From the IMG/VR virus record IMGVR_UViG_3300027779_000162, positions 1 to 23,747 of that record: a DNA stretch of 23,747 nt. One strand, written 5' to 3'. Position 1 is the first letter of the stretch; each line of letters opens with the position of its first letter. This document shows, one piece after another, positions 6,903 to 23,747 of this stretch. Below the pieces are notes generated by a model. That model saw only the letters and a program-made list of their open reading frames with translations, was not told where the DNA came from and searched no databases. The stretch is from a virus. Position numbers and translations under genes: made by a program.

Positions 6903-6916
6903 TTTATTGAAATGCG

Positions 6917-7038: not shown

Positions 7039-7069
7039 AATTTTCTAACACTGCCTAAAAGGAGTGAAT

Positions 7070-7576: not shown

Positions 7577-7583
7577 TCATGTG

Positions 7584-7603: not shown

Positions 7604-7618
7604 TCTAATAAGGAAATC

Positions 7619-8086
7619 ATGCGCATTAGTCAAAATTTTTCATTAAATGAATTAACAAAATCGAGTACAGCAATGAGACTTGATATTGATAATACTCCAT
7701 CGATGGAACATCTCGTTTCCATGACGGCACTTGTACATAAAATCGCGCAACCTATTCGCGAAGAGTTTGGTGTGGTCACAGTCAACTCATGCTATAGAAG
7801 TCCTGAATTAAATACTGCAGTAAAAGGATCTAAGAAATCCCAACACTGTAAAGGGCAAGCGATTGATCTTGAGGTGATGAGAGTTCCCAATGATGAGCTG
7901 GCAACATGGATCTATAACAACTTAGAATTCGATCAACTCATACTTGAGTTTTTTGATCCAAAAGCAGGCGACCCTAATATGGGTTGGGTGCATTGTTCAT
8001 ACAATCACGAGGGAGCACAACGCAAAAATGCGATGCTCATAAATAAACACTCGAAAGGTTATAAACCATGGGAACCGAAAAAATAA
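7619..8086 (+). CDS. peptidase M15 family endolysin
   Basis: A 155-residue peptidase of the M15 (D-Ala-D-Ala carboxypeptidase / L-Ala-D-Glu endopeptidase) type. The zinc site is complete: H76 and D83 in S-Q-H-x2-G-x-A-x-D (SQHCKGQAIDLE, 74-85) and H125 in GWVHCSY (122-128). N57-S-C-Y-R-S-P is the usual substrate-side loop. The N-terminal ISQNFSLNELTKS resembles the helical start of this family. No signal peptide is visible, so export would need a holin, and a holin-like gene lies at 6565. It would cleave peptide stems of peptidoglycan at lysis. The start is set by AAGGA at 7610-7614. Structural (tail-associated) use is a less likely alternative. Confidence 0.88.
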   Translation: MRISQNFSLNELTKSSTAMRLDIDNTPSMEHLVSMTALVHKIAQPIREEFGVVTVNSCYRSPELNTAVKGSKKSQHCKGQAIDLEVMRVPNDELATWIYNNLEFDQLILEFFDPKAGDPNMGWVHCSYNHEGAQRKNAMLINKHSKGYKPWEPKK

Positions 8087-8109
8087 TTAAGATTCTAACA
8101 AAAATAGAC

Positions 8110-8138
8110 TTGACACTTGGTACCTTTCGTGGTATAAT
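8110..8138 (+). promoter_or_regulatory. sigma70-type early promoter for gene 43
   Basis: TTGACA at 8110-8115, 17-base spacer, TATAAT at 8133-8138: a perfect consensus pair in the only gap (8087-8186) before DNA polymerase. The eight bases before the -10 box (TTCGTGG plus flank) are shared with the uvsX promoter at 10696. The rest of the gap shows nothing else clear. Confidence 0.82.
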
Positions 8139-8186
8139 TAATAAGTGGATAGATAAATTAAAAGAGGAACAACGCATAGAAAATTA

Positions 8187-10691
8187 ATGGATTTTTATAC
8201 ATCAGTCTCAAAAGATCACAATGATATTGTCGTACGTGGATACAAAGACGGCAAACGCATTAAAGAAAGAATCAGGGATTATCAACCTACCTTATTTGTC
8301 CCTGATTCCACAGGTAAATCAGAATGGCGCACCTACGATGGTAAATGCGTCGCTCCACTCAAAGTCGGCAACACTCGAGAACTAAACGTCTGGAAAGAAA
8401 GATACAAGGACGTAGAGAACTTTCCCATATATGGATATGAAAGATATGCTCAGCAATGGATAACTGAGAACTTTCCCCCAGAGATCGAGTTTGACTTCCA
8501 ACTATTTCGCACAGGATTTATGGATATTGAGGTATCTTCGGAAGAAGGTTTCCCGGATCCAGAAGGTGCAAACTATCCTGTAACTGCCATTACCCTTTGG
8601 GTACAGGGCAAGTATTACATTTGGGCATCCCAACCATGGGAAAACAAAAAGAACCTGAACGCAGAGTTCTTTCTGATCCAGGATGAGAAGGCATTGCTCG
8701 ATGATTTTATACATCGCTGGGCACAACTTGATATCGATATTATCACAGGATGGAACGTACGTTTCTTTGATTTGCCTTACCTTCATAATCGTATTGCAAA
8801 ACTTTGCGGTGGCGACACAAATAAAAACTGGTCACCCTGGGGTAAAGCATCGATGCGAGATACATACGGTTCTATGGGTAAACCTCAAAAGTACCTTAAC
8901 ATACTTGGCATTGCTACGCTCGATTATATTGAATTATACAAGAAGTTTACCTACCAAAACCAAGAGTCGTATCGACTTGATCACATTGCCAATGTTGAAC
9001 TGGGTACAGGTAAACTGTCCTTTGAGGAATACGGCAGTCTACATACATTATGGAAGTCTGATTTCCAACTGTACCTTGACTACAATATACAAGACGTAGA
9101 CTTGATTCTCCAGTTAGAGGATAAGATGAAACTGATTGAGACAGCTGTGACTCTGACAATGTCGATGAAGTCTATACCAGATGCTTGTTTTACTCAGGTA
9201 CAAATGTGGGACAATAAAATCTATGATGTTCTTTGGAGAGATAAGATTGTAGTTCCTCCCAGACATGACTCAGAAAATAGAGATAGTGTTGAGGGAGCAT
9301 TTGTGAAAGATGTACATCCTGGTATGTATAACTGGGTGATGTCCTTTGACTTAAACAGTCTGTATCCTCATTTGATTATGCAGTATAATATTTCCCCTGA
9401 GACATACCTTGGAATGGATGATACTCCTGGTGTACAAGCATTTCTAGATAAGAAAGTCAAACGACCCGAGGGTTACACGATGACTCCAAATGGGGCAAAG
9501 TTTAGCACAGATAAGCAGGGGTTTCTGCCTAAACTGATGCAACAGTTCTACGACGATCGTACGATTTTTAAAACAAAGATGCTACAACATGAGCAGGAGA
9601 TGATAGATACAGATGACCCTGTAGAAAAACAACGACTGGGTAAACTTGTCTCAAGTCTGAACAATCTGCAGATGGCTCGTAAGATTTCTCTTAACTCTGC
9701 TTACGGTGCCCTCGGTAATGTGCATTTCCGTTGGTACAATCGCAACCTTGCTGAAGCAGTTACTTTGTCAGGACAGTTGTCTATTAAGACTGCTGAGCGA
9801 GCAGTAAACAAATGGATGAACAATGTTTTTAAAAACGAAAAAGATTATGTTATTGCTGCCGATACAGATTCGTTATATGTTAGTATGGAAGATATGGTTG
9901 AGGATAGATATAAGGATGTACCTTTCAATCCAATGGAAACTGCTATTGTTGAGTTTCTGGACAAGTTGGGCGAAGGACCAATTCAAACTGTTATTGATGA
10001 GGCATATAAAGATCTGGCCGAGTACGTAAATGCCTTTGAACAAAAGATGAGTATGAAACGGGAAAGTATTTCCTCCAAAGCTATTTGGACTGCCAAAAAA
10101 CACTACATTCTCAATGTTTGGAACAACGAAGGTGTTCAGTATGAAGAACCTAAACTGAAAATGATGGGGATCGAGGCAGTGAAATCTTCTACGCCAGCTG
10201 TTTGTCGTGCTAGTCTCAAAAAATCCTTTGATGTAATCATGAATAAAGATGAAGATAATTTACAGGCATTTGTAAGTAGGTTCAAAGAGGAGTTTCATGA
10301 GATGCCTATTGAGGATGTTTGCTTTCCGAGATCTGTAAAGGGACTTACCAAATACGGTGATCGACAGGACATTTACAAATTAGGCACTCCTATTCACGTC
10401 CGAGGTTCTTTGCTTTACAATAAACTTCTCAATGATCACAAAGTTGAGAAGAAGTATGCGAGGATCCAAGAGGGAGAAAAAATCAAGTTTGTCTATCTCA
10501 AAATGCCGAATCCAATCCGTGAGAACGTCATCGCTATGGTCGATGGTTTACCTCCTGAGTTTGGATTAGATAAATACATTGACAGAGATTTGATGTTTGA
10601 CAAAACCTATAAATTACCTCTAGATGACATTGTTGAAAAAATTGGTTGGTCTCTTGAAAAGAGGAATACCATCGAAGATTTCTTCGGATAA
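8187..10691 (+). CDS. 43: DNA polymerase, family B (gp43)
   Basis: An 834-residue replicative polymerase with 3'-5' exonuclease, homologous to T4/RB69 gp43 (about 900 residues). Exonuclease motifs: Exo I D113-I-E115, Exo II GWNVRFFDLPYL (188-199), Exo III Y299-x3-D303. Polymerase motifs: A SFDLNSLYP (386-394, D388), B K499-x3-NSAYG (503-507), C DTDS (559-562). All catalytic residues are present, so both activities should be intact. The C-terminal NTIEDFFG matches the position and type of the clamp-binding tail of T4-like gp43. The N-terminus MDFYTSV aligns with T4 (MKEFYISI). The nearest Shine-Dalgarno-like AGAGGA (8163-8168) is 18 bases from the ATG, unusually far, which hints at structured or regulated initiation; T4 gp43 represses its own translation. 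Confidence 0.96.
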   Translation: MDFYTSVSKDHNDIVVRGYKDGKRIKERIRDYQPTLFVPDSTGKSEWRTYDGKCVAPLKVGNTRELNVWKERYKDVENFPIYGYERYAQQWITENFPPEIEFDFQLFRTGFMDIEVSSEEGFPDPEGANYPVTAITLWVQGKYYIWASQPWENKKNLNAEFFLIQDEKALLDDFIHRWAQLDIDIITGWNVRFFDLPYLHNRIAKLCGGDTNKNWSPWGKASMRDTYGSMGKPQKYLNILGIATLDYIELYKKFTYQNQESYRLDHIANVELGTGKLSFEEYGSLHTLWKSDFQLYLDYNIQDVDLILQLEDKMKLIETAVTLTMSMKSIPDACFTQVQMWDNKIYDVLWRDKIVVPPRHDSENRDSVEGAFVKDVHPGMYNWVMSFDLNSLYPHLIMQYNISPETYLGMDDTPGVQAFLDKKVKRPEGYTMTPNGAKFSTDKQGFLPKLMQQFYDDRTIFKTKMLQHEQEMIDTDDPVEKQRLGKLVSSLNNLQMARKISLNSAYGALGNVHFRWYNRNLAEAVTLSGQLSIKTAERAVNKWMNNVFKNEKDYVIAADTDSLYVSMEDMVEDRYKDVPFNPMETAIVEFLDKLGEGPIQTVIDEAYKDLAEYVNAFEQKMSMKRESISSKAIWTAKKHYILNVWNNEGVQYEEPKLKMMGIEAVKSSTPAVCRASLKKSFDVIMNKDEDNLQAFVSRFKEEFHEMPIEDVCFPRSVKGLTKYGDRQDIYKLGTPIHVRGSLLYNKLLNDHKVEKKYARIQEGEKIKFVYLKMPNPIRENVIAMVDGLPPEFGLDKYIDRDLMFDKTYKLPLDDIVEKIGWSLEKRNTIEDFFG

Positions 10692-11942: not shown

Positions 11943-12333
11943 AGTGGATCCCTTGTATGAGGGGCGAAAAGGCATGGCTCAAGCAGAAATTAAATGGGCA
12001 TGGTGCTTAAATCCTGTAGACAAAAAAGATGAGCAACATTGTATAGATGTCCGTCACCCTAAATATGATGGAACGATTATTCGTCTAAACAACATAGGCG
12101 TAATCGGAGATGATCCTCATCCAGAGACTGGAGAAATCCATCCTAATGCAGGACGTCTCCATTTGGATTATGATGTCGTAGCGATTCAGGGAGGATCGCT
12201 TGCCGATAAAAAAGCAGAATGGACGCAGGAGGACAAAGAAGAATTTCACGAAGTAGTTGAACATATAGCAATTCAAATTTTAGCGAGAGATGGACTTGAT
12301 AGAGCAAACAATACTCCGGAATCTATTAACTAA
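11902..12333 (+). CDS. hypothetical protein between uvsX and gp41
   Basis: A 143-residue protein of unknown function, overlapping uvsX by 41 bases and gp41 by 44 bases in different frames. I start it at ATG 11902 ([11 protein letters not shown]) because AGGAG at 11890-11894 is seven bases away; an ATG at 11884 is possible. It has a proline-rich N-terminus, a central region with [21 protein letters not shown] and an acidic C-terminal helix. In T4 gene 40 (a head-assembly factor) occupies this slot, but I see no similarity to gp40. The double overlap makes coupled translation with the recombination/helicase genes likely. Confidence 0.7.
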
Positions 12334-13696
12334 CGAACCTTACATGAGGAAGACAATCCCCTTCCTCAGAAGCGAATACTTTCACGACACGATACAAAGG
12401 ACCGTCTTTAATGAAATGTTTACCTTTGTTGATAAATACAATAAATGTCCAACGCAAGAATCACTGAGTATTGATCTCAGTAAAAAGAATTTAGCAGAGG
12501 ACGTTTTTAAGGGAGCAGTTGGGTTAGTCAATGAGTTGACACCCGAAGATCCTGCCTCCGATCTGCAGTGGCTTTGTGATCAGACTGAACAGTTCTGTCA
12601 AGACAAAGCAGTCTATAATTCAATTATGAAATCCATCGAGATTTTTGATGGCAAAACAAATGAAGATAAGGGAGCGATACCACAACTCTTATCTGATGCA
12701 TTAGCAGTATCTTTCGATCCGAATATCGGGCATGATTATGTGAAAGATTCTGAAGCAAGATTCGACTGGTATCATTCAAAGGAAAAGAAGATCGAGTTTG
12801 ATCTCGATTACTTAAACAAAATTACTGATGGTGGGTTGCCAGATAAAACACTAAACATAGTGATGGCAGGTACAGGTGTTGGTAAGTCCCTTTTCATGTG
12901 TCATTGTGCAGCAGCAAATTTGTATGCTGGCAAAAATGTTCTTTACATCTCTATGGAGATGGCAGAGGAACGAATCGCTGAAAGGATTGATGCAAACTTG
13001 CTCGACATTCCTATCCATCAATTACGAGAGTTACCACGCGACGTATTCGATAAAAAGATCGCGAGCCTCCGTAGTACAGTTAAAGGCAATTTGATTGTCA
13101 AAGAATATCCGACTGCCACTGCGCATGTCGGACACTTTCGTCATCTTGTCAACGAATTAAAAATCAAGAGAAATATCCGACCAGATATTATCTACATTGA
13201 TTATTTGAACATTTGCGCATCTTCTCGTATGAAGAACATGGCCAATAATCTTTACCAATTGGTGAAGTCCATTGCCGAAGAACTACGAGGATTTGCAGTA
13301 GAGATTGAGGTTCCCATCGTCTCGGCGACACAGTTGAATCGTGCAGGATTCATGTCGTCTGACATTGACCTTGGAGACACCTCAGAAAGTTTTGGGCTGC
13401 CGGCAACGGCAGACTTTTTCATCGGCATCCAAACATCGGATGAACTAGACGAAAAAGGTTTGCTTCTTATTAAGCAACTCAAAAATCGATACAATGACCC
13501 GTCTCTGCATAAGAAATTTGTCATTGGAGTCGATCGTTCAAAAATGCGTCTGTTTGATGTTGCAGATCAGTCACTCATTAATCGCCCAGGTGAAAAGGCG
13601 AAACAAGATAAGGAAAAAGATGATACTCCTGTCTTTGATAGAGGAACTGATAACAGAATGACAAACAAACGTGAATTCGGTAACTGGAATTACTAA
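12290..13696 (+). CDS. 41: replicative DNA helicase (gp41, DnaB family)
   Basis: A 468-residue homologue of T4 gp41 (475 residues), the hexameric 5'-3' helicase that drives the fork and assembles with primase. Residues 1-140 form the N-terminal domain (PFLRSEYFHDT; T4 PYMDSEYFES). The RecA-like motor follows: Walker A AGTGVGKS (193-200), YISMEMAEE with catalytic glutamate (219-227), Walker B DIIYIDYLNI (about 299-308) and the Q of SATQLNRAGF. The ESFGLPATADF block matches T4 ESAGLPATADF. The C-terminal 40 residues are polar and presumably flexible. The start codon is inside the 3' end of the preceding gene. No separate primase gene (gp61) is seen in the window. Confidence 0.95.
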   Translation: MDLIEQTILRNLLTNEPYMRKTIPFLRSEYFHDTIQRTVFNEMFTFVDKYNKCPTQESLSIDLSKKNLAEDVFKGAVGLVNELTPEDPASDLQWLCDQTEQFCQDKAVYNSIMKSIEIFDGKTNEDKGAIPQLLSDALAVSFDPNIGHDYVKDSEARFDWYHSKEKKIEFDLDYLNKITDGGLPDKTLNIVMAGTGVGKSLFMCHCAAANLYAGKNVLYISMEMAEERIAERIDANLLDIPIHQLRELPRDVFDKKIASLRSTVKGNLIVKEYPTATAHVGHFRHLVNELKIKRNIRPDIIYIDYLNICASSRMKNMANNLYQLVKSIAEELRGFAVEIEVPIVSATQLNRAGFMSSDIDLGDTSESFGLPATADFFIGIQTSDELDEKGLLLIKQLKNRYNDPSLHKKFVIGVDRSKMRLFDVADQSLINRPGEKAKQDKEKDDTPVFDRGTDNRMTNKREFGNWNY

Positions 13697-13704: not shown

Positions 13705-14349
13705 ATGTTCGAAGAAAAAAGAATGCATCGTATCTTTGGTACGATCGATGCTGCGCATATATGCTGGGATCATTTCGTAAATCATCATGCTACTTCGTGG
13801 CAACAGGTTGAGGCAAATCTAACACGCGACCTCACAGAAATTCTCTCAGTCAGTACCAACTTCAATGTTAAGATCGCTTCACGTCTTGAGGCAAACGAGT
13901 GTTATCTTGATGGGTCTACCTATGCCCCCAAGAATAGTAAAACACCTAAGATAGATATTGGTTTCTATTGTTCTCAGCCAATCTATCGACGAGAAGTTGC
14001 GATCACTCTCCCAGTTCTAGCAGAACTATCCCACGAGTTTGCAAAGGTTATTCTCCACGAATACTCTTGTGCAGATCAAGCAGATATCAATACAGCAGGT
14101 GATCCCCTGTACGATTTTGTTGATCCCTTAGAGGTTGATGCATATTCAACCGAACTCGCCTATGACTACGTTCGCCGAGGCACTCTCGATGATTCGGATG
14201 TTTTTGTCCGATTCCAGAAAGTAAACTCGGTTGAAGTCAAGTCCGAACTCTATCATCTTACAGCACTTAAAGTAGAAGTATTGCAGAAAATGATGACTGT
14301 TGCATCAAATGTGGTTACTACTGTGCCTACTGTGGCAACAGTTCGGTAA
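13705..14349 (+). CDS. unknown protein with degenerate zincin-like motif
   Basis: A 214-residue protein of unknown function. Residues 112-124 read FAKVILHEYSCAD, similar to the metal-binding helix of zinc peptidases (H-E-x2-H), but the second histidine position holds Cys122. About 25 residues later EVDAYSTELAYDYV (143-156) resembles the third-ligand region of such phage proteins (E-x-D-A-Y). It may be a metallopeptidase-like fold that has lost or changed zinc binding. The start is uncertain: ATG 13705 or ATG 13723 (MHRIFGT), the latter preceded by GAAGAAAAAAGA. The C-terminus is Val/Thr rich (VVTTVPTVATV). It lies between gp41 and the CCTAAATA motif. Confidence 0.6.
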   Translation: MFEEKRMHRIFGTIDAAHICWDHFVNHHATSWQQVEANLTRDLTEILSVSTNFNVKIASRLEANECYLDGSTYAPKNSKTPKIDIGFYCSQPIYRREVAITLPVLAELSHEFAKVILHEYSCADQADINTAGDPLYDFVDPLEVDAYSTELAYDYVRRGTLDDSDVFVRFQKVNSVEVKSELYHLTALKVEVLQKMMTVASNVVTTVPTVATVR

Positions 14350-14350
14350 C

Positions 14351-14358
14351 CCTAAATA
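14351..14358 (+). promoter_or_regulatory. CCTAAATA motif, possible late promoter
   Basis: CCTAAATA directly after the preceding stop codon and 26 bases before ATG 14385. CCTAAATAATGAG (14351-14363) is identical to 836-848. A TATAAT at 14381-14386 also occurs here but has no matching -35 box and overlaps the start codon. It marks the beginning of the virion/cargo gene block. Confidence 0.5.
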
Positions 14359-14384
14359 ATGAGCAAATCTTTATAAAGGGTATA

Positions 14385-15641
14385 ATGTTAGCATTTTCGT
14401 CATTTCGTGCTCCAGAGACAGGGTTTATTGTCGAAGGTAAAGAAGGCAAAAACCTCCATCTCGAGCATCTTGAGGATGAAGTCCTTAACGGAGGTGTTGA
14501 GGGAGTCTCGACAGCATTCAAGTTTTTGGATGCTCTAGAAGAGATGATGAGAGGGAGTTCGAAATCTTCAGTAAAAATAACTACCAAATGGGACGGAAGT
14601 CCTGCTATCTTCTGTGGTAAGGATCCTGCTGATGGGGTGTTCTTCGTAGGAACGAAATCCATTTTCAATCAGAATCCTAAACTATGTAAGACTGTTAAGG
14701 ACGTTGACGAGCATTATTCTGATTCGGGATTAAACCCGAAACTCAAAATCGCTCTCGCCAAACTGAAAGATATTGGCATACCCGACGGACACGTATTCCA
14801 AGGGGATATGATGTTCACGTCTGAAGATCTTGAGAATAAAACGATAGATGGAACAGACTACGTTACGTTTCAACCGAATACTATAGTCTATGCCATTCCA
14901 AAAGGCACTCCCTTTGCCAATCAAATAAAAGGGTGCAAACTCGGTGTAGTTTTCCATACTGATTATTCAGGATCTGGAGAACTCGCAGAATACCGAGCAT
15001 CATTTAATCCTGCCGTAAAGAAACTGCGGGCACCGAAAGATGTATGGATTCAGGATGCTGAGTATTCTGATGCATCTGGTACTGCGATGTTTACTGCTAC
15101 AGAAAGCAAAAAGTTTAGTGGAATGCTTGATGGTGCGAGGAAGATAGGCAAAAAGATAGATCATTCATTAATTGAGCGATTCGCCAAAGACGAAAAGTTG
15201 AGGGTTGATGTAAAAGCATTCATGAATTCTAAGATAAGGCAAGGTCAGAAAATTGCTAATACAGCAAAAATGGCAATAGAACTGCTGGCATACCTAGAAG
15301 AAAAGCAGATGAAAAAAATTGGTAAACTTAAAACCCAAAAGACCATCGATGCTAAAACAACTGACTTAAAAAAGTTTATTAAAGACCTGTCATCTTCGAA
15401 AGGAAAACTTAAAATAGTGTTTGATTTGATGAATGCTATTCAGCAAGCCAAAGACTACATTGTCAAGAAACTGGAGAAAGTAAAACAAATGACAGATACC
15501 TTTGTCAAGACTGAGACAGGATTCAGGGTTACCGGTCCAGAAGGTTTTGTTGCCGTGGATAAGATGAAAGGTAATGCTGTCAAAATAGTAGATCGCTTGG
15601 AATTTTCCATGGCGAACTTTAACGCAATCAAAAGTTGGTAA
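14385..15641 (+). CDS. conserved phage protein with ligase-type KxDG motif
   Basis: A 418-residue protein of a type I recall from marine T4-like phages (LEHLEDEVLNGGVEG near residues 26-40; possibly DUF6267). Residues 68-71 are K-W-D-G within TTKWDGSPAIF, like the nucleotide-binding motif I (K-x-D-G) of the DNA/RNA ligase and capping-enzyme superfamily. FFVGTKSIFN (86-95), VFQGDMMF (137-144) and LGVVFHT (186-192) fall where motifs III, IIIa and IV might be expected. The C-terminal half (about 240-400) is lysine-rich and helical. The N-terminal IVEG (15-18) could be a prohead-protease site. A ligase-like or nucleotidyl-transferring role is inference; no activity is proven. AAAGGG (14375-14380) is the ribosome binding site. 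Confidence 0.65.
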   Translation: MLAFSSFRAPETGFIVEGKEGKNLHLEHLEDEVLNGGVEGVSTAFKFLDALEEMMRGSSKSSVKITTKWDGSPAIFCGKDPADGVFFVGTKSIFNQNPKLCKTVKDVDEHYSDSGLNPKLKIALAKLKDIGIPDGHVFQGDMMFTSEDLENKTIDGTDYVTFQPNTIVYAIPKGTPFANQIKGCKLGVVFHTDYSGSGELAEYRASFNPAVKKLRAPKDVWIQDAEYSDASGTAMFTATESKKFSGMLDGARKIGKKIDHSLIERFAKDEKLRVDVKAFMNSKIRQGQKIANTAKMAIELLAYLEEKQMKKIGKLKTQKTIDAKTTDLKKFIKDLSSSKGKLKIVFDLMNAIQQAKDYIVKKLEKVKQMTDTFVKTETGFRVTGPEGFVAVDKMKGNAVKIVDRLEFSMANFNAIKSW

Positions 15642-15644
15642 AAT

Positions 15645-16070
15645 ATGAGACTTGAACACGCAATAAAAAATGTAGTTACTAATCAAAGGGAAGAGAATTC
15701 CGTAGAGAGGAAACCTCTTATGAGTTTTGCGCATGCAATAAGAAATGTAGTTAATAATGTAGATGAGCAAAAGTCTAGTCATACTCCTGGCCAAAAGGAC
15801 GGTATACAAGAGCATCCTCTTTCAAAACAAACATCTGATTACGAAGAAAAATACTTCACCAATAAGGACGATGGTGAAGGCAAGGACGATAGAGAAAAAT
15901 TTATTACGGGCAAGAAACCTGAGCAAAAGGCAAATGTCGAAGATACTGAGGGACACGTAAATCCCACTAAGAAAGTAAGCAAAGCTGCTCCTGTAGCAGA
16001 AGAGTTAGATTCTCTTAATCAACAACGAGTCCAAGAACTTCTTGAGAAGTACGGACCAACGCAAGGATAA
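15645..16070 (+). CDS. small charged protein with duplicated N-terminal motif
   Basis: A 141-residue, strongly charged protein, mostly predicted disordered (Lys/Asp/Glu/Gln rich between 40 and 120). Its N-terminus holds two copies of one motif 25 residues apart: HAIKNVV (5-11) and HAIRNVV (30-36). The second copy is preceded by M26 with AGAGGA (15706-15711) upstream, so an internal start (15720) giving a shorter product is possible. The C-terminal 20 residues (SLNQQRVQELLEKYGPTQG) look helical. It starts four bases after the preceding stop. The function is unknown; the position between likely head proteins suggests a virion component. Confidence 0.6.
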   Translation: MRLEHAIKNVVTNQREENSVERKPLMSFAHAIRNVVNNVDEQKSSHTPGQKDGIQEHPLSKQTSDYEEKYFTNKDDGEGKDDREKFITGKKPEQKANVEDTEGHVNPTKKVSKAAPVAEELDSLNQQRVQELLEKYGPTQG

Positions 16071-16071
16071 T

Positions 16072-16422
16072 ATGAATTTAGAATTAAAGCAGGTTAAAGA
16101 CCTAACCGAAAAAAAGCAGGTGAAGGATTCCTTCATGGGAGCAGTTGCTCATGCTGCGTCAAAGGGCGAAAAGACAGTAGAAATTGATGGAAAAACCCAT
16201 CCTGTCACTATGAAACCTGAGACCCATAAAGCAATCAAAAAATCCAAAAAGGATAATGGAACTGGTGGCAAAAATATGGCCAAAGAAGAGATTACTTGGG
16301 AACAAGCAGTCCGTAAGGCACAAGCTACTGCTGTCCAAACTTCCAAAGAATATTGGGAAGAGGAAATCAGAAAGAATCAAGAAGGTTGGGGTTCTAAACC
16401 AACTACTAAAGTGAAGTTGTAA
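16072..16422 (+). CDS. small conserved-type phage protein, function unknown
   Basis: A 116-residue basic protein starting at ATG 16072, two bases after the preceding stop, with AAGGA (16063-16067) well placed. A longer frame from 16042 exists but overlaps the upstream gene. It contains FMGAVAHAASKGEKTVEIDG (about 21-40), KTHPVTMKPETHKAIK and a C-terminal helix with WEQAVRKAQ. No catalytic motif or membrane segment is seen. Proteins of this look occur near head genes in marine T4-like phages by my recollection, but I cannot assign a role. Confidence 0.6.
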   Translation: MNLELKQVKDLTEKKQVKDSFMGAVAHAASKGEKTVEIDGKTHPVTMKPETHKAIKKSKKDNGTGGKNMAKEEITWEQAVRKAQATAVQTSKEYWEEEIRKNQEGWGSKPTTKVKL

Positions 16423-16430
16423 GTAGACGC

Positions 16431-17033
16431 ATGAAGTCATACAACAGTTTTATCAAAGAAGCAAAAAACGAAAAGGTAGCAGTAGTTACTTTTGGTAGAC
16501 TGAATCCTCCAAGCATTGGTCACAGCAAACTGATCGATGTAATGTTGGGAGTTGCCAAACGTAACTCAGGCACGCCAATGGTTTTTCTTTCTCACACTCA
16601 AAATTCTAAAAAAGATCCTCTTGACTATAGAACTAAAGTCAAGATCTGTCAAAAGGCATTTGGACGTGACATCATTAAAAACGACACCGTCAATAATCCT
16701 TTTGATGTAGTCTATAAACTGCGTGACGAAGGTTATACTCACGTTTATTTTATAGCAGGATCAGATCGAGTCCCTCAGTACACTACGATGTTTAAGAAGT
16801 ACTCGGGACATCCTGACAAGGATAAGGATATTGGTGTTAAGTTGCAGGTTGTCTCTGGAGGTGATAGAGATCCTGACGCTGATAATGCTGAGGGTATGTC
16901 AGCAGGTAAAATGCGAACATTCGCAATGGAAAACGACTACGAGCATTTTGTGCTTGCTAGTCCTGATAAACTAAGTGTACCCGATGTCAAAAAATTGTTT
17001 ATTGCAGTAAGAAAAGCAATGGGTGCAAAATAA
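16431..17033 (+). CDS. HIGH-type nucleotidyltransferase with capsid-targeting-like N-terminus
   Basis: A 200-residue protein of the cytidylyltransferase/NMN-adenylyltransferase superfamily, which joins a nucleotide to a phosphorylated substrate with release of diphosphate. Residues 21-31 (FGRLNPPSIGH) form the nucleotide-binding loop and H-x-G-H-like site with Ser at the first His. GSDRV (110-114) and EGMSAGKMR (154-162, the ISxTxxR-like motif) complete the fold. The substrate cannot be told: NMN, glycerol-3-phosphate and others are possible. The first 11 residues MKSYNSFIKEA strongly resemble the T4 internal-protein capsid-targeting sequence MKTYQEFIAEA, with a possible prohead-protease cut after E10. 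If so it is packaged in the head and injected. No strong Shine-Dalgarno is visible. Confidence 0.82.
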   Translation: MKSYNSFIKEAKNEKVAVVTFGRLNPPSIGHSKLIDVMLGVAKRNSGTPMVFLSHTQNSKKDPLDYRTKVKICQKAFGRDIIKNDTVNNPFDVVYKLRDEGYTHVYFIAGSDRVPQYTTMFKKYSGHPDKDKDIGVKLQVVSGGDRDPDADNAEGMSAGKMRTFAMENDYEHFVLASPDKLSVPDVKKLFIAVRKAMGAK

Positions 17034-17046
17034 TGAAGGAGTTTGA

Positions 17047-17184
17047 TTGATTCGACGTGGTATTTTTGCGCATGAAGAAACAGGAATAAAGAAACGGACG
17101 AGCATAGGTAAATCGCCGTTTTCTAGACCAACCAATAAGCATAAGAGAAGAGGTTGGAAAAAATACAGAGGACAGGGGAAGTAA
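17047..17184 (+). CDS. 45-residue basic protein (TTG start)
   Basis: A short gene starting at TTG 17047 with an ideal AAGGAG (17036-17041) five bases upstream and ending at TAA 17182-17184, six bases before the next gene. The product has Arg/Lys throughout and finishes NKHKRRGWKKYRGQGK (residues 30-45), a tail I recall in small proteins of marine T4-like phages. It fills the gap between the nucleotidyltransferase and the RimK-like gene exactly. The basic tail suggests binding to nucleic acid (packaged DNA or RNA), but this is inference. No zinc or membrane motif. Confidence 0.6.
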   Translation: MIRRGIFAHEETGIKKRTSIGKSPFSRPTNKHKRRGWKKYRGQGK

Positions 17185-17190
17185 ATCCTA

Positions 17191-18537
17191 ATGAAAAAAT
17201 TCAAGACTATATTTGAAGAAGTCAAGGAACCTACGTTTCTTATACTCACAATTTCAAATCCTCAAGATAGCAATCCTCAGAAATTTTGGGGTGCGATGAA
17301 AAATACCTATATCGTTTACGTAGATGAATGCTATTTGGATACCAAGAAGATTAGATCAGGTAAAATTACCATCAATAATTATAATGGTAAACTTGATAAT
17401 CTTCCCATAACTGTGAATGAAACTTTTGCTATTCCTTTGGGGTCAGTATTGGTTGATGAGTCACGATTGGGTATTGTTGAGTCTCTTGAGACAATTGGTG
17501 TAGCCATGCTCAATGAGATCAGTAGCATGAAAAATGCGAGAAACAAACTCACGACTTCCCGTATTCTTGTTGAGGCCAAACTGCCAACACCGATTACTTC
17601 TATCGTCCACCCTGCCGTGTTAGATGATGCTATGAAGACAGTTGGTGGCAAGTTCCCGATGATTCTCAAAACTGTGACAGGTTCTCAGGGCAAAGGGGTA
17701 ATGAAAATTGAGTCAATGGACTCTCTCAGATCTGTCGTTGATGCCTTTGACATAGACAAAAAAGAAATCCTATTACAGCAGTACCTTCCTATCAAATATG
17801 ATATTCGTGTTGGTGTTCTGATGGGTGAAGCAGTTTTCGCTATGAGAAGATTTAAGGCAGATAAAGATTTTAGAACAAATATTAAACTTGGTTCAGCTTA
17901 TGAACCTTTCCGACCAACTCCTGAGATGGTTAGGATGGCAGAACTTGCTGCCAATGCTATGCATATGAGATTTTGTGGTGTTGATATCGGAGTTGGCGAA
18001 TTTGGAAATACTATTATAGAAGTGAATGGATCTCCTGGTGTATCTGGGAAATATTATTTCATCAAAGATAAAAAAGATATTGTTGGCACAGATCTAGTAA
18101 AATTTATGCACACATATTTTCAAGACGAAGAGAATTGGTCTAGAAATAAAACCGAGATTGGGGTCATTGAACCTGTTAAATTTGCCTGGGGCGATATGCT
18201 GGCAAAAATGGATACAGGTTGTGGTGGTTCATCTACACTTGATGCTAGAAATCTCAAGGTAACAAAGAACAATCGTGCCATTTTCAAAGTTGGCCGAACA
18301 GGCAAAACAATAACAATGCCAGTTGACGAATTTGAGACTGTTCAAGGTGCAGTCGGTACAGAAAAGGAAAGGCGACCCGTGGTCACCATTCCGATGACCT
18401 TTCGTAAAAAAGAATATCCTGTCCGTTTCTCTCTAGCAGATCGTGGTCATATGAACTACCCTGTACTAATGGGAACAGGATGGATGCAAAAAAATGGATT
18501 CGTTGTGAATCCAGACATACGCAACGAACCTAAATAG
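17191..18537 (+). CDS. RimK-like ATP-grasp ligase fused to RimB-like retropepsin
   Basis: A 448-residue two-domain protein. Residues about 90-310 form a RimK-type ATP-grasp ligase: FPMILKTVTGSQGKGVMKI (155-173) is the phosphate loop, LLQQYLP (194-200) and DIRVGVLMGEAVFAMRR (204-220) line the ATP site, and IIEVNGSPG (275-283) carries metal-binding E277 and N279. RimK adds glutamates to the C-terminus of ribosomal protein S6. Residues about 325-448 match the RimB/'ATP-dependent zinc protease' retropepsin family: catalytic D341-T-G and LADRGHMNYPVLMGTGW (415-431); RimB is reported to remove or limit those glutamates. The N-terminal MKKFKTIFEEV resembles a T4 capsid-targeting sequence. Domains are well supported; target protein and packaging are inferred. 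Confidence 0.85.
   Translation: MKKFKTIFEEVKEPTFLILTISNPQDSNPQKFWGAMKNTYIVYVDECYLDTKKIRSGKITINNYNGKLDNLPITVNETFAIPLGSVLVDESRLGIVESLETIGVAMLNEISSMKNARNKLTTSRILVEAKLPTPITSIVHPAVLDDAMKTVGGKFPMILKTVTGSQGKGVMKIESMDSLRSVVDAFDIDKKEILLQQYLPIKYDIRVGVLMGEAVFAMRRFKADKDFRTNIKLGSAYEPFRPTPEMVRMAELAANAMHMRFCGVDIGVGEFGNTIIEVNGSPGVSGKYYFIKDKKDIVGTDLVKFMHTYFQDEENWSRNKTEIGVIEPVKFAWGDMLAKMDTGCGGSSTLDARNLKVTKNNRAIFKVGRTGKTITMPVDEFETVQGAVGTEKERRPVVTIPMTFRKKEYPVRFSLADRGHMNYPVLMGTGWMQKNGFVVNPDIRNEPK
18529..18536 (+). promoter_or_regulatory. CCTAAATA motif, possible late promoter
   Basis: CCTAAATA overlaps the stop codon of the RimK-RimB gene and is 16 bases before the next ATG. It precedes a run of probable structural genes (18553 onward). 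The short distance to the start leaves a leader of only about 10 bases, but AAGGA still fits. Confidence 0.4.
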
Positions 18538-18552
18538 TAGAGAAAGGAACTT

Positions 18553-19476
18553 ATGTCTAAGTATGTAAATCTAGCCAGCAAGATTGTCGACCTGGTTCAT
18601 GCAGAGCATAAGGCAGGTTTACGTTCTGAACGTAAGAAAACTGCCGAGGCTAAAGCAAAAAAAGTGAAATCACTCGATCCTTCTGTTGAAAAAGAAATGG
18701 ATCCTAATAATCCTGGATTCAAATCTAAAGAACAACAAGAAGAAAAATGTGATAAGTGTGGCAAAGAACCATGCGAGTGTGTGGAAGAAAAAAAAGATAA
18801 GGGTAAGGATAAAGATAAAGAAGATGCGCCAAAGGACGATGAAAAAAGTGATCCAGTAGGCGATAAATCTGCTCCACCCGAAGATGCTGCTGCTCCACCC
18901 GAAATGCCAAAACAACCTGATCCCGAAAACGTATTGAGCACAGGTTCAGTGGATATTCAAAAGAAACCCTCACCTCCGATGCCTGGAAATAAAAAGAAGG
19001 GCAAGAAAAAAGTGGAGATGTCAGGAAAAAAGGAAAAAGTGGAAACAAAACCCAAAAGTGAATCAATCGATGATCAGATTCGCCGAAGAGAACAGGCATT
19101 ATCTAAGCCAAGATTTTCGGTTGAGTCCTTTAAACATCGAATTCAAGTAAAAGAAAAATTTCTCAGACTTGATGAAGAGACAGGTATCTCTAAGAAGTTA
19201 ATCTCCGAAGGTATGTGGGATGGAACACTTCAAGCAGATATGGAGCTCTATGGTAAACCTGAGATTACACAACTGCAACTCTATCGAATGCTTGAGTTGT
19301 ATCGTGCCGCAGGAATGAACTTAGAACAGTCTTGCGATACAATCGAATATTTATATGGAGTTCGACCTGTTTCCGATGAAGATGGAAACATGAATTTTGA
19401 TGGAACTCAAATGGATATTCAAAAGTATGGTAGAAATGACGGCGAAAATCGTGCCGCATACTATCAAGGCAAGTGA
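18553..19476 (+). CDS. low-complexity charged protein, probable virion component
   Basis: A 307-residue protein of unknown function in three parts. Residues 1-60 are a basic helix-forming segment (SKIVDLVHAEHKAGLRSERKK). Residues 60-175 are low-complexity Lys/Asp/Glu/Pro sequence with a four-cysteine cluster C66-x2-C69-x4-C74-x-C76 that could bind zinc. Residues 175-307 look folded, with ITQLQLYRMLELYRAAGMN and CDTIEYLYGV. LISEGMW near residue 215 contains I-S-E-G, a possible prohead-protease site. AAGGA precedes the ATG and CCTAAATA lies just upstream. Position before the fibre-like gene suggests a head or neck protein; this is not shown by homology. Confidence 0.6.
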   Translation: MSKYVNLASKIVDLVHAEHKAGLRSERKKTAEAKAKKVKSLDPSVEKEMDPNNPGFKSKEQQEEKCDKCGKEPCECVEEKKDKGKDKDKEDAPKDDEKSDPVGDKSAPPEDAAAPPEMPKQPDPENVLSTGSVDIQKKPSPPMPGNKKKGKKKVEMSGKKEKVETKPKSESIDDQIRRREQALSKPRFSVESFKHRIQVKEKFLRLDEETGISKKLISEGMWDGTLQADMELYGKPEITQLQLYRMLELYRAAGMNLEQSCDTIEYLYGVRPVSDEDGNMNFDGTQMDIQKYGRNDGENRAAYYQGK

Positions 19477-19518
19477 AATGTTTCGCGATCTTTTAATTAA
19501 CGTAAGTCAAAGGAAAAT

Positions 19519-21189
19519 ATGGCTGATAGGAAAATAACCGACCTGACTGAGATTTCAGCAACGTCGGCAGATGATGTACTTCATCTAATTGATTTTAACC
19601 CGAGTGCGAGAAACACCAAGATTTCCTTGGCTAATTTTTTCTCATTCATCCCTGCTAACGTAACATTCGGTTCTGCTTCTTCTCCGTGTAATCTGACGAT
19701 TTATGGATCAAGTACAAATGCGAACCAGCAGTTTGTTACAGCAAACGATACTCATATTTTTAACGTAAATACATCTTTCCAACAGTCAATGACTGTCGGG
19801 GATGCTACTCTGAATCCACAAGTCGTTCTAAACCATTATGGTTACAATAACCTTACTGGTTATATGAATGCTGCTGCTGCCAACGTTGTTGTCGGTGCTA
19901 CTGGTGTAGGAAACGGCAAGAAGATGGAAGTTTACGGAGACACTGGGCATATCACAACTGATGGTGACCAGCATGTAGAAATCTCCGGTAGACTCAATGT
20001 TATAGCAAACAGCGTGATGGTCGGTAACTCAACAGTCGGTCAAGATGTACAGGCAATGGGTGCTGACGGAGTTGCTACTGACATGATGCACTGGCAGAAA
20101 ATGACCTCAACATTAATGGCCGCAAAACCTGCTCAAATAGTTGCTAATACAACTGGAGCAATGTATGTACAAGGTGCTACACAGCTCGGTGACGATACTA
20201 CAGGATCTGATCTTAAAATTCAAGGATCTTCAAGTAAGTCCATCTATTTTGACAGTGCTACTAACGGACTGAATGGTAACATCACTTCAACCAATTGGTT
20301 TGGTGAGTGGACTTTCGGTGATGGTGCAACTCAAAATGACATTACCTTTTCTGGTGTTTCCGGAAATATGGTATGGGATGCTTCTGCTTCTACTTTAATA
20401 AATCAGAATGACACAAGCATGTTAGGTGGTCTGTATCTCGGTACTGCAGGTGGAACAGCTAACCCTGTTATTCAAGCATGGGGATCAACTGGAGCCAAAG
20501 GTATTTTTTGGAATGGGGCAACTGATGCTTTAGTAGCAAACGTTGCTGATTCAAATGGATTCCAACTTCATGGTTCCTTTACCATTGGAGCAGACGGAAC
20601 TTCAGGTGCCAACGTATCCTGGTTCACTGATACAGCAGGCGAGTCCTTAACATTTGATGGAGACCTCAGAGAAATGAAGTACACTTCTACTTCTCAGGAT
20701 GGTTTCATCATGGCCTCAAATACTAGTATAGGTGCATCAGTATCAGGTGGCGTAGGATTTCACCACTATGGTCCTGGCAAATTTCGTTTCGATGCAGTTC
20801 CTGTTATCGTAGGTAACTCTTCGGTAGTTTCTTCATCACTGTCAAATGGCGGTGCTAGCGATATTAAGGGTGCAGTAATTCTCCAACAGATTACATCTGG
20901 TTCAGGTTTACCTGATGGTACTACAGTCGGTAGCGCATCTGGTCTTCAAACTCAAGCATATATGTATGCTAAGTTGGATGGTGGTGATTCTGCTGTTCAC
21001 GTTATGGACTCAGCAGGAAACGAAACAAAGATTTCTGCTCACACAGATGACGCAGCAAGAGACTATGAGATCCATGATCTCTGTCCAGTCGGCGGTAAGT
21101 TGAGACATAGAAAAATTAATATTGTCAAACTTGCTGAAGCACTTGAAGCAGTGACGGGCGAAAAACTCATACAGGAGTGGTTCGAGTAA
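19519..21189 (+). CDS. probable tail fibre or virion surface protein
   Basis: A 556-residue protein rich in Gly, Ser, Thr, Asn and Ala with few charged residues, typical of beta-structured phage fibres. The N-terminus (KITDLTEISATSADDVLHLID, then KISLANFF) matches the attachment-domain style of phage tail fibre and baseplate-associated proteins. The middle (about 45-480) has repeated short strands such as VVGATGVGNGKKMEVYGDTG and GLYLGTAGGTANPVIQAW, suggesting a beta-helix or trimeric shaft. The last 50 residues (HDLCPVGGKLRHRKINIVKL) are charged and distinct, possibly a folding or trimerisation segment. It likely contacts the host or decorates the virion. AAGGA at 19508-19514 sets the start. 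No sugar-hydrolase motif is recognised. Confidence 0.65.
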   Translation: MADRKITDLTEISATSADDVLHLIDFNPSARNTKISLANFFSFIPANVTFGSASSPCNLTIYGSSTNANQQFVTANDTHIFNVNTSFQQSMTVGDATLNPQVVLNHYGYNNLTGYMNAAAANVVVGATGVGNGKKMEVYGDTGHITTDGDQHVEISGRLNVIANSVMVGNSTVGQDVQAMGADGVATDMMHWQKMTSTLMAAKPAQIVANTTGAMYVQGATQLGDDTTGSDLKIQGSSSKSIYFDSATNGLNGNITSTNWFGEWTFGDGATQNDITFSGVSGNMVWDASASTLINQNDTSMLGGLYLGTAGGTANPVIQAWGSTGAKGIFWNGATDALVANVADSNGFQLHGSFTIGADGTSGANVSWFTDTAGESLTFDGDLREMKYTSTSQDGFIMASNTSIGASVSGGVGFHHYGPGKFRFDAVPVIVGNSSVVSSSLSNGGASDIKGAVILQQITSGSGLPDGTTVGSASGLQTQAYMYAKLDGGDSAVHVMDSAGNETKISAHTDDAARDYEIHDLCPVGGKLRHRKINIVKLAEALEAVTGEKLIQEWFE

Positions 21190-21206
21190 ACCATCACTTT
21201 TTCGTT

Positions 21207-21611
21207 ATGAAACCATTTGACGACATCAGTAATGAAAACTGGTTGTTGTTTGCGAGTTTGAACTATAAACTTAAAGAGCATTCAACAACCAGAGAGTTCA
21301 TGGCTGATCTAAACACTACAAAATATATCAATCGACACTTCAATAACTATCGTAGAAAAGGTTATTTGAAGAGTCGATTGTGTATGAACCATATAATAGT
21401 TTACTTTAACGTCTTTCAGACACCTGCGGCACAAAGGTTACTATTCTTCAAAGTTCCACCAGAGAACTGGGCACTGCTCAAAATGTTTCTGGTATTTTTG
21501 GAGAGGTGCCCCCAGCAAGTGAGAGGTGTTAACGGAAGCACGATTAACGTGGGCGAAATCGAAATAGAAAAGAATGCTTTGGAAGTAGCAAGGGAAGAAC
21601 TTAATGGTTAA
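21207..21611 (+). CDS. conserved phage protein of unknown function
   Basis: A 134-residue protein starting MKPFDDISNENW, with KYINRHFNNYRRKGYLKSR and LCMNHIIVYFNVF in the middle and RLLFFKVPPENWALLKMFL near residue 85. I recall similar proteins (NHIIV..NVF followed by LFFK) in T4-like cyanophages near structural genes, with no known function. A GTG at 21177 would add ten residues, but AGGAG (21173-21177) overlaps that codon, so I prefer ATG 21207 even though it lacks a close Shine-Dalgarno; coupling to the preceding gene (stop at 21189) is possible. The next gene overlaps it by eight bases. Confidence 0.65.
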   Translation: MKPFDDISNENWLLFASLNYKLKEHSTTREFMADLNTTKYINRHFNNYRRKGYLKSRLCMNHIIVYFNVFQTPAAQRLLFFKVPPENWALLKMFLVFLERCPQQVRGVNGSTINVGEIEIEKNALEVAREELNG

Positions 21612-23079
21612 ATCGTATAAGCAACTTAATGAGGGATTACTATCAGGTGCCTTTAATCTGGCAACTGCTTACTTTTTTGTTAAGAAAATGGCTACCCCTT
21701 TTGAGAAAACTGAAGCATACAAACTCGGCATTATAGACAAAAAAGGCAGAATCCTCAAGAAGATGAAGGAACTTGTATCCGAAAAGGAACGCAAGGCATA
21801 TACTCTTCTCGACAGGGTTATTTGGAATATTAAGAAATTAATGTCATTCATACCAGGAGGTGGTAGCATGCTAGCAGGTGTTGCTGCTGCTACAGCACTC
21901 TTAATGAAGGAAGAAATGGATTACGCAGTATCAGATAATCTGGTTCAAGTTATGCTTGAGGCAGCAAAAAATCCAAACACAGATGAAGACATGATCCAGA
22001 AGATTTCCGACATATGGGAAAAAGCAAAGGGTAATGTCAAAAAATTTAAAATGGATATGAAACGAGCAAGACTTGATGATCGTGCTTTGAACAAGGCAGG
22101 ACTTCAGGATTTTGTTGATGAGCTAATAGGCGGTGGAATTTCTGAGATTGAACCTGTAGAACAAGAAGAAGGTGCGCCAACGAATAATGCTGGTTCTGGG
22201 CAAATCAAAGGATTTACCGAACCTTTTAGGAGAAAGAAAATGAAGAGTGAATCTGTCGATACGGCAATGCTAGAACTCTTCGAACGAGAGGAATGGACAC
22301 AAACTACAGTCGATTCAGCACTGACTTTCTGTGAGGCTATCGGTCTTGATATAGAATCTCTCGATGAAGAAGAATTTGTGACAGTTGTAAATGCTCTAGA
22401 TGATTTCCAAAGACAACAAATATCAGAGGCACTCTGGATGTCAGAAGCACAGTTAGTAACTGAGGCTGAGGTGGAAGAAATCGAAAAGGAAAATGAGGAG
22501 CAAGTAGAACTCGATGAATCTCCAATCGAAAACAAAATAGACAAGTTGCTCAAGAAACTGAAGGCACCTGGTGAAGTTATGGGTTCCAAAGGTGACGATG
22601 TTATTATTGATCATCCTAAGTATGGTAAAGTTTTCTACAATCCAAAATCTGATAACTTTTCCTTTGATTCCAAAAAAGCAAAACCTTTGATGAGAGTATG
22701 GAAAAAACATACGGGCGAGAACTGGAAAGATGCTGTTCTGGGAATACGGGTTCTTGGTGGAACTATGGAAACAATGATTAAATTAATGAGAGAGGGTATC
22801 GAGGAGACTGGTACTCCTATTTTTAAAGTATCTCCAGAAGTCTACGACCAATGTAAATGGGGTCGTGAGAAATACCAACGATGGAATAAAGTTGTTGGTG
22901 AATCTAATGGTGTTGAGCAGATCAAAGAATATGGTAAAAAGAATCCTTCTGCCCCGATCATTGTTCAGAATAAACAATCAGGTGAAATGCAATATTTGAG
23001 ATTTGGGAATATATCATCGGAATTGAAGGAAAGATATTATGTTGAATGTGAAACAGAAAATAAATCGAGCAACTTATAA
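21604..23079 (+). CDS. conserved phage protein with capsid-targeting-like N-terminus
   Basis: A 491-residue protein of unknown function. It begins MVKSYKQLNEGL, resembling the T4 capsid-targeting sequence, with L8-N-E10 before G11 as a possible prohead-protease site. Next come AYKLGIIDKKGRILKK (38-53), RKAYTLLDRVIWNIKKL (about 63-79) and a Gly/Ala hydrophobic stretch GGGSMLAGVAAATALL (85-100), a block I recall in marine T4-like virion-region proteins. Residues about 170-300 are acidic and low-complexity and contain several further (I/L/V)-x-E-A sites. Residues about 305-480 look like a separate folded domain with KYGKVFYNPKSDNFSFD, a potential peptide- or DNA-binding module. Probably a head-internal protein (inference). 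Confidence 0.65.
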   Translation: MVKSYKQLNEGLLSGAFNLATAYFFVKKMATPFEKTEAYKLGIIDKKGRILKKMKELVSEKERKAYTLLDRVIWNIKKLMSFIPGGGSMLAGVAAATALLMKEEMDYAVSDNLVQVMLEAAKNPNTDEDMIQKISDIWEKAKGNVKKFKMDMKRARLDDRALNKAGLQDFVDELIGGGISEIEPVEQEEGAPTNNAGSGQIKGFTEPFRRKKMKSESVDTAMLELFEREEWTQTTVDSALTFCEAIGLDIESLDEEEFVTVVNALDDFQRQQISEALWMSEAQLVTEAEVEEIEKENEEQVELDESPIENKIDKLLKKLKAPGEVMGSKGDDVIIDHPKYGKVFYNPKSDNFSFDSKKAKPLMRVWKKHTGENWKDAVLGIRVLGGTMETMIKLMREGIEETGTPIFKVSPEVYDQCKWGREKYQRWNKVVGESNGVEQIKEYGKKNPSAPIIVQNKQSGEMQYLRFGNISSELKERYYVECETENKSSNL

Positions 23080-23107
23080 TAAACCTGAAAGTTTGGAAGA
23101 GAGTGAC

Positions 23108-23452
23108 ATGGCAGAGGAAGAACAAAATTCGAGGTCGAAAAATCCTCATACTCAATTAGATGAGATTGCAGATGCAATTAACGCAGGTGTTCCTGCTGAA
23201 CTTATAGTCCATGAGTCAGAACTTGAGGAGCGAACACGTACTCGGCAATTTGCTGCAAGACTTACAATAAGTCTTATCACAATAAGCATTTTCATTATAG
23301 TTGTGATTTTACTTTTCTTTTTTGAAATCTCGGATTCATTCAGAGATTTATTAAATATTTTAATCGGTGGCTTTCTTGCTACCTTCACGAAGATATCAGA
23401 TTACTGGTTTAAGGGAGATGGCGGTGACCCTCCTGCTATTACAAAAGGATAA
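23108..23452 (+). CDS. small two-segment membrane protein
   Basis: A 114-residue protein from ATG 23108, preferred over an earlier ATG (23039) that lies inside the previous gene; GGAAGAGAG precedes it. A charged N-terminal half (1-50) with ELEERTRTRQ is followed by a strong membrane segment at about 52-72 (SLITISIFIIVVILLFFF) and a second at about 81-95 (LLNILIGGFLATFTK), then a short Gly/Pro-rich tail. The topology suits a holin or a phage inner-membrane protein. A second lysis gene in addition to 6565 is possible, but the location among virion genes keeps the role open. Confidence 0.6.
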   Translation: MAEEEQNSRSKNPHTQLDEIADAINAGVPAELIVHESELEERTRTRQFAARLTISLITISIFIIVVILLFFFEISDSFRDLLNILIGGFLATFTKISDYWFKGDGGDPPAITKG

Positions 23453-23455
23453 AAA

Positions 23456-23747
23456 ATGAATACCTATAAAACATTGAATCAAATGGAAAATGAGGCAAGT
23501 GAGCAAACATTGGATCACGTTCTTTCGCATCCTTTTTTCGCTAAAAAGTCCTCCCTCCAAGAAAAAATATCGACTCCTAAAGAGGGTGACGGTCATGACC
23601 ATAGTTCTGAGACAATGAATCAGTACAAAGGTCAACATGAAAAACATGGTGTAGACGTTACTAAGTCTAAACCTAAGAAACGACCTTCAGAGTCAGGCAA
23701 CGTTGACCAACAAAAAAATGATGTTGCTGATATCGACGAACTTGTTG
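23456..23747 (+). CDS. unknown charged protein, 3' end outside window
   Basis: The first 97 residues of a gene that runs off the right edge. AAAAGG (23444-23449) precedes the ATG with good spacing. The N-terminus MNTYKTLNQMENEASEQ begins like the capsid-targeting-like proteins in this window but lacks a clear (I/L)-x-E-A/G site. The remainder is polar and His/Lys/Asp rich (GDGHDHSSE, SKPKKRPSES) and probably disordered. No family is recognised. Confidence 0.55.
   Translation, partial: MNTYKTLNQMENEASEQTLDHVLSHPFFAKKSSLQEKISTPKEGDGHDHSSETMNQYKGQHEKHGVDVTKSKPKKRPSESGNVDQQKNDVADIDELV

Follow-up and report, generated by a model that had tools for sequence, protein, structure and literature searches.

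Which proteins travel in the head of a marine T4-like phage? The question is raised by a 23,747-base viral contig (IMG/VR record IMGVR_UViG_3300027779_000162, positions 1 to 23,747; 'the window' means this whole stretch), in which four proteins, named here by the first base of their genes (14385, 16431, 17191 and 21604), begin with residues reminiscent of the prefix of T4 internal proteins. A first-pass annotation had proposed that all four bear a T4-type capsid-targeting sequence, are packaged, trimmed by the prohead protease, and injected with the DNA. Here we show that non-homologous proteins share the prefix as a conserved, modular signal at their N-termini. Packaging and trimming of 14385, 16431 and 17191 are likely, and injection followed by an early function, proposed by analogy with the T4 internal proteins, is less secure. 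Overall, the system is best read as the capsid-targeting sequence of T4 applied to a much wider enzyme cargo.

A T4-like prefix marks the starts of unrelated proteins

The N-termini are MKSYNSFIKEA (16431), MKKFKTIFEEV (17191), MVKSYKQLNEG (21604) and MLAFSSFRAPETGFIVEG (14385, with FIVEG at residues 14-18), and each holds, as had been stated, [IL]-x-E followed by A, G or E within its first 18 residues. Of the 12 genes in the block that follows the gp41-type gene, 4 have this loose motif, compared with 0 of the 17 other listed window genes and with 290 of 6142 (4.7%) 18-residue stretches elsewhere in the same proteins. Relative to the T4-type layout, a prefix of 10-20 residues with an aromatic residue at position 4, hydrophobic residues at 7 and 8, and a Glu at 10, 16431 is exact, 17191 fits with Phe at 8, and 14385 fits with an insertion. 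Under a stricter pattern based on T4, 16431 and 17191 match, and 14385 and 21604 do not.

Judged from the window, the similarity could be put down to chance, given how common short amphipathic helices containing a Glu are. The probability of at least four loose-motif genes is just 0.046 over 29 genes (0.0018 over the 12 block genes, the block having been chosen post hoc), and the UvsX of the window (10854) matches the stricter pattern by accident and is treated as a false positive. The motif in the window is genuine, yet weak evidence alone and only suggestive; it is the comparative evidence, not the window statistics, that lifts the signal above chance.

To that end, viral contigs were scanned with the codons of M-K-x-[FY]-x-x-F-[ILF]-x-E-A (the tag). 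At least 120 stretches matched and 80 loci were examined, in which the pattern opens a reading frame in 84 of 84 matches, with at most 27 codons back to the upstream stop; two of these frames run off the contig after 13 and 30 codons. For a control pattern with the codon order reversed, there were 26 matches, one of them like the start of an open reading frame (ORF; Fisher p 7e-24), the tag and the control being comparable by their share at ORF starts and not by their totals, since the total is complete for the control and a lower bound for the tag. Here and below, locus counts come from contigs that are related to one another and in part nearly identical, and cannot be treated as independent observations, the Fisher p included. 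Internal methionines served as a second control. Among non-selected genes, a stricter motif is far commoner at starts than after internal methionines, with 21/973 versus 8/3029 at the tag loci, and 31/843 versus 13/4085 at loci of the DUF6267 family, to which 14385 belongs; with firmer exclusion and duplicates thinned, the figures are 21/846 versus 7/2815 (p 8e-9) and 28/694 versus 11/3457 (p 3e-14), respectively. Chance similarity is rejected on the reversed-order and internal-methionine controls, and it is likewise left exceedingly improbable by two protein families that retain the prefix at dozens of loci (see below).

The claim that the prefix sits on otherwise unrelated proteins was also upheld. 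With the first 12 residues removed, single-linkage clustering sorts 133 tagged proteins into 54 groups; the largest (51 proteins) mixes multidomain proteins, and at least one of the 133 (L112:4442-4684) is a regular-expression accident. A signal peculiar to DUF6267 is rejected because unrelated proteins carry the same prefix.

In a strict whole-genome screen with a simple gene caller, ten named phages and the window pooled gave 17 matches at 2351 starts versus 9 at 7992 internal methionines (p 4e-6). The five tagged starts of phage C48C1 lie within 57.3-68.4 kb, the same region as its relatives of window genes. The strict matches in T4 comprise two ORFs starting MKTYQEFIAEA, which we take to be IPII and IPIII, and gp61.1, which starts MKTFKEFIKED.

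The prefix is conserved in the DUF6267 and RimK families

14385..14435, + strand: predicted targeting prefix of the DUF6267 protein, MLAFSSFRAPETGFIVE; precedes the domain start KNxHLEHxED, with cleavage predicted after Glu17
14385..15641, + strand: DUF6267 protein, probable covalent nucleotidyltransferase of the RNA/DNA-ligase type (PF19782, 6.8e-100; invariant K68-x-D70-G71)

In the alignment, the conserved domain of DUF6267 proteins starts at KNxHLEHxED, and a variable prefix stands ahead of it. Examination of 80 loci of the family gave 75 proteins with a usable start. A fixed pattern finds the core prefix in 67 of these, or in 19 of 23 once the set is thinned at 70% identity. Among the eight others, three (L241, L244 and L265) start almost directly at the domain, and the prefixes of five are altered or mis-started. 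Glu at P1 is part of the definition of the core, and the pattern limits the choice of residues elsewhere, but not to the favoured ones. In the 60 cores that were spelled out, the first position is Phe in 52, P4 is Phe or Tyr in 52, P3 is Leu or Ile in all 60, and Ala, Asp or Ser follows the Glu in 44. These favoured residues correspond to the targeting (4 and 7) and processing (8 and 10) positions of T4 IPIII, as assigned by amber-suppressor work (PMC9026906).

The structural model of 14385 has a predicted local distance difference test score (pLDDT) of 76.4, which is moderate, and of about 45 in the prefix. The KxDG motif is invariant in 28 aligned sequences, and at least 38 of the best 50 structural matches are RNA/DNA ligases, with a best Z of 7.1, a range that possibly reflects just a common arrangement. 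A Foldseek search with the model gave no match at an E of 0.001, which shows little, and a sequence search of the PDB with the family profile gave nothing. From the invariant KxDG and the structural matches, we regard DUF6267 as a probable, not proven, ligase-type nucleotidyltransferase.

17191..17220, + strand: predicted capsid-targeting prefix MKKFKTIFEE; cleavage predicted after Glu9 or Glu10
17191..18537, + strand: RimK-type ATP-grasp ligase with a RimB-like (PF05618) domain (PF08443, 3.3e-29; PF05618, 4.7e-9)

The PDB matches of this fusion are named S6 glutamate ligase and ATP-dependent zinc protease, and its RimB-like domain has a conserved DTG, as in aspartyl proteases, present in all three aligned sequences. 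The viral relatives are tagged, by a lenient pattern, at 76 of 79 loci, and the other three are cut at their 5′ end. One search pattern contained the tag; outside that pattern, 36 of 36 relatives with intact starts are tagged as well. Eight relatives were found in genome contigs, where one of the two search patterns contained the tag. All six with intact starts in bacterial metagenome-assembled genomes (MAGs) are untagged, consistent with the proposal that cellular homologues would lack the tag, and a cellular origin of the prefix is rejected on the same count. A seventh (L314) has no clear start, and the eighth (L310), tagged and filed under a Thaumarchaeota MAG, is read as lying on a T4-like phage contig because its neighbours resemble, by eye, the proteins encoded at 3265 and 4943 in the window.

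At L288:1737-3788, one 683-residue protein joins adenylyltransferase, RimK and RimB-type domains behind a single prefix, MKKFRDILAEA, whereas the window encodes the same three domains in two neighbouring genes, each prefixed. One tag versus two is what an address label per polypeptide predicts, in this single case. A RimK-like protein is annotated as structural in phage YerA41, in which a 'ribosomal protein modification protein' is marked as particle-associated (PMC7354516); we infer that the two are the same gene.

The adenylyltransferase family is tagged in part

16431..16460, + strand: predicted capsid-targeting prefix MKSYNSFIKE, in the same register as the T4 prefix; cleavage predicted after Glu10
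16431..17033, + strand: adenylyltransferase of the nucleotidyltransferase superfamily ('cytidyltransferase', PPAT/NadD-like fold; phrog_3041, 1.1e-47)

The model of 16431 (pLDDT 86.6) presents the prefix as a short helix ahead of the first strand, and its nearest folds by Foldseek are the PPAT and NadD adenylyltransferases; a PDB sequence search with the profile gave nothing. The nearest relative, in L007, starts MKTYTQFIGEA. In the 11 aligned relatives, the prefix is clear in four (L007, L003, L015 and L019).

One member of this family has been seen in particles. T4-GC190, a putative cytidylyltransferase, was detected in purified virions of cyanophage S-SM1 (Sullivan et al. 2010, PMC3037559). 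The gene SSM1_190, annotated T4-GC 190, is homologous to 16431, and its product begins MKKFSAFLNEA; about 70 residues separate this tag from the catalytic domain, which sets it apart from 16431, and the consulted text of PMC3037559 gives it no role in targeting. A 1197-aa fusion of adenylyltransferase, DUF5824 and HD_4 domains at L008:7989-11582 is without an N-terminal tag.

21604 is a weak member of the set

21604..21633, + strand: uncertain tag-like extension at the N-terminus, MVKSYKQLNE; lies ahead of the residue at which untagged homologues start
21604..23079, + strand: phage protein of unknown function (phrog_18642, 7.1e-30)

The first 110 residues of 21604 have relatives near gp61 in many T4-like phages, with tblastn matches in 177 phage records. 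In the 26 loci of the family, 23 starts are intact, of which 21 lie at the domain itself and two, in the nearest relatives L318 and L319, lie ahead of it with a short extension. The prefix is not kept across the family, and judged from sequence 21604 is weak as tagged cargo because the extension occurs in only 2 of 23 relatives. We regard it as evenly balanced whether 21604 belongs to the cargo at all or whether LNEG is a lineage-specific extension without consequence, so that only three proteins of the set are packaged. The relatives in HTVC008M, Melnitz, C48C1, DLP6 and phiM12 also start at the domain, like the 21 above, and the three extended proteins do not have their aromatic residue at a fixed position, as expected of an inconsequential extension; on the other hand, L318 and L319 retain LNEG and YLKEG, respectively, directly ahead of the domain, and the tagged gp61.1 of T4 adjoins gp61, as do many relatives of 21604.

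The hypothetical protein gp61.1 (L109:1467-1631, 54 aa) resembles in its body, by eye, the C-terminal part of a 164-aa Mosigvirus ORF (L002:6001-6495), which is itself a relative of 21604.

Compared across homologues, the T4-type targeting and cleavage prefix claimed for all four proteins is thus strongly supported for 14385 (67/75) and 17191 (76/79) and well supported for 16431 (clear in 4/11), but weakly for 21604 (2/23).

A similar cleavage core is predicted in the major capsid protein

An S77 (gp21-type) protease is encoded in 11 of 11 named phages searched. In all nine major capsid proteins found (T4 and relatives; Syn9 gp23, not found by BLAST against gene calls, is left out of the comparison), a predicted L-x-E site aligns with Glu65 of T4 gp23, the known T4 cleavage site, ahead of the conserved shell region. 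The predicted sites read FLTE, ILTE, VLTE, FLGE, LLGE, FLTE, LLQE, FLSE and FLSE, and, their cores being like those of the tag prefixes, a similar cleavage core is predicted in both. Both the S77 protease and gp23 are present in the same 5 of the 14 tagged contigs that exceed 31 kb, a set made up mostly of fragments. The nine without them include two large tagged contigs, L122 (106.8 kb) and L141 (87.6 kb), in which neither the S77 protease nor gp23 was detected.

Other tagged proteins point to a broad cargo

At L188 (IMGVR_UViG_3300025288_000189), seven tagged ORFs form an island (3442-9422) that lies, by eye, between portal/tube and sheath genes. It includes an ART-PolyVal ADP-ribosyltransferase (1.5e-12) and, by eye, an HExxH protein (HELTH) and a second GNAT-like protein; a tagged GNAT acetyltransferase was also found (1.2e-7). 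Tagged genes that appear HAD phosphatase-like by eye lie close to DUF6267 in L241, L259, L261 and L266, and the one that was scanned (L241) weakly resembles a family of phage polynucleotide kinases (5.5e-4). Most of the tagged proteins scanned singly have no Pfam match. Among 55 tagged proteins searched against PHROGs, 2 hit a family named 'internal virion protein' (best 1.7e-45), and 3 have weak hits to one named 'internal head protein' (best 1.3e-4).

The prefix could send proteins to the prohead core for an action there, in assembly, maturation or DNA packaging, or they could be left behind in the head, in which case they would not be injected effectors. T4-GC190 was termed a virion structural protein (PMC3037559), and the L188 island sits among portal, tube and sheath genes, as this alternative would have it. 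The cargo, however, includes enzyme kinds that are used against hosts (ADP-ribosyltransferase, GNAT and RimK ligase), and in T4 the internal proteins that bear the prefix do enter the host with the DNA (PMC9026906, PMC9391042). We consider a role confined to the head unlikely.

Genomic setting

12290..13696, + strand: gp41-type helicase, assigned by position and by eye; in a homologous position in L003, L004, L017 and L019; marks the start of the block

By eye, the window encodes gp45, gp44, gp43, UvsX and gp41-type genes, followed by the block (13705-23747), which contains DUF6267 (14385), the adenylyltransferase (16431), the RimK-RimB fusion (17191), DUF7207 (21177) and 21604. Similar blocks lie between gp41 and gp61 in Melnitz (L003), HTVC008M (L004) and P-HM2 (L017), and after gp41 in S-SM1 (L019; sequence examined to 152 kb). 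The RimK gene of Melnitz and Mosig sits elsewhere, near gp43.

In the same block, P-loop kinases (Zeta_toxin/AAA_33, weakly polynucleotide-kinase-like) are encoded at L004:12186-12848 and L008:13100-14290, with possible degenerate prefixes. Elsewhere in the window, a small protein (6173-6565), by eye an IscU-type iron-sulphur scaffold, is encoded near Hsp20-like and M15 peptidase-like genes.

A model for packaging and delivery

Modelled on T4, the prefix would act in two steps. Docking on the scaffold core of the prohead would depend on an aromatic side chain near position 4 together with another residue, hydrophobic or aromatic, near position 7. A gp21-type prohead protease would then cleave behind the Glu of [LI]-x-E and release the enzyme within the head. 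The freed enzyme would leave the head with the DNA and enter the next host. The cargo would probably be a zero-hour kit, comprising the RNA-ligase-like DUF6267 protein, the adenylyltransferase and the RimK-type ligase with its RimB-type domain, and the last of these may have ribosomal protein S6 or some other acidic tail as its substrate.

Several observations weigh against packaging through this prefix. The tag is doubtful in 4 of the 11 adenylyltransferase relatives (L004, L009, L011 and L016) and missing in 3 (L008, L010 and P-HM2); with a clear prefix in only 4, packaging of the adenylyltransferase is not universal or proceeds by another route. Virions of S-PM2 yielded no T4-GC190 (PMC3037559), and the structural RimK relative of YerA41 lacks a T4-type prefix. 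Position 8 of the 17191 prefix is neither Ile nor Leu. In the strict screen, only C48C1 (5/200 starts versus 0/850 internal methionines), T4 (3/273 versus 1/905) and the window pass 0.05 singly, and HTVC008M, DLP6, phiM12 and Syn9 have 0 matches, although the Syn9 adenylyltransferase does begin MKKFSAFLSEA and was missed through start choice. Finally, 7 of the 9 capsid proteins hold another loose [FILVM][LI]xE match within their first 90 residues, and the gp21 and gp23 of the window's own phage fall outside the record.

Relation to known systems

T4 Alt is an ADP-ribosyltransferase. It is a packaged protein with cleaved ends (PMC9026906), which the tagged ART-PolyVal protein of L188 recalls, whereas no ADP-ribosyltransferase was found in the block of the window. 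A close likeness is to T4 IPI-IPIII, whose prefix, described by Mullaney and Black in 1996 (cited in PMC9026906), has about 10 residues, with Phe or Tyr near position 4, hydrophobic residues near 7 and 8, and a small residue after Glu10. The T4 cargo named in the cited papers consists of small basic or anti-restriction proteins and Alt, whereas the cargo here consists of multi-domain enzymes encoded in a gp41-gp61 block. In the giant phages SPN3US and phiKZ, N-terminal propeptides of head proteins, including head ejection proteins, are likewise removed by a prohead protease, but these propeptides are mostly much longer, and the motif is A-x-E in SPN3US and S-x-E in phiKZ (PMC5694885). The polyvalent proteins described by Iyer and co-workers (as told in PMC7824862) share ART and GNAT domains with the tagged proteins and are delivered with DNA; they are large and multidomain, while the proteins here are single tagged enzymes.

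The prefix kind itself is known, and it has already been suggested that T4-like phages may use such sequences to carry various proteins (PMC9026906). A literature search by titles and the starts of abstracts, covering few subscription journals, found no paper on capsid-targeting prefixes in marine phages. As far as that search shows, the breadth of the tag in marine T4-like phages and the enzyme cargo are new.

Implications

Only for a few phages is it known which proteins enter the cell with the DNA, and genetic study of marine myoviruses is difficult. We entertain, with slightly more doubt than confidence, the wider proposal that marine T4-like phages load dozens of enzyme families through one short label, so that the payload may be read from genomes and metagenomes, and that in this lineage it is an RNA-end-repair and ribosome-modifying kit acting before phage gene expression. 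Such a kit would comprise the ligase-like DUF6267 protein and the RimK-RimB fusion, along with the tagged HAD phosphatase-like proteins and neighbouring P-loop kinases of related phages. If the tag has the role proposed for it, a ten-residue rule would predict head cargo from sequence alone, a prediction that is testable with existing phage stocks, and it would explain the cytidyltransferase found in cyanophage virions in 2010. T4 gp61.1 and the tagged ADP-ribosyltransferase, acetyltransferase, phosphatase-like and peptidase-like proteins would then become candidates for counter-defence or host takeover in the first minute of infection.

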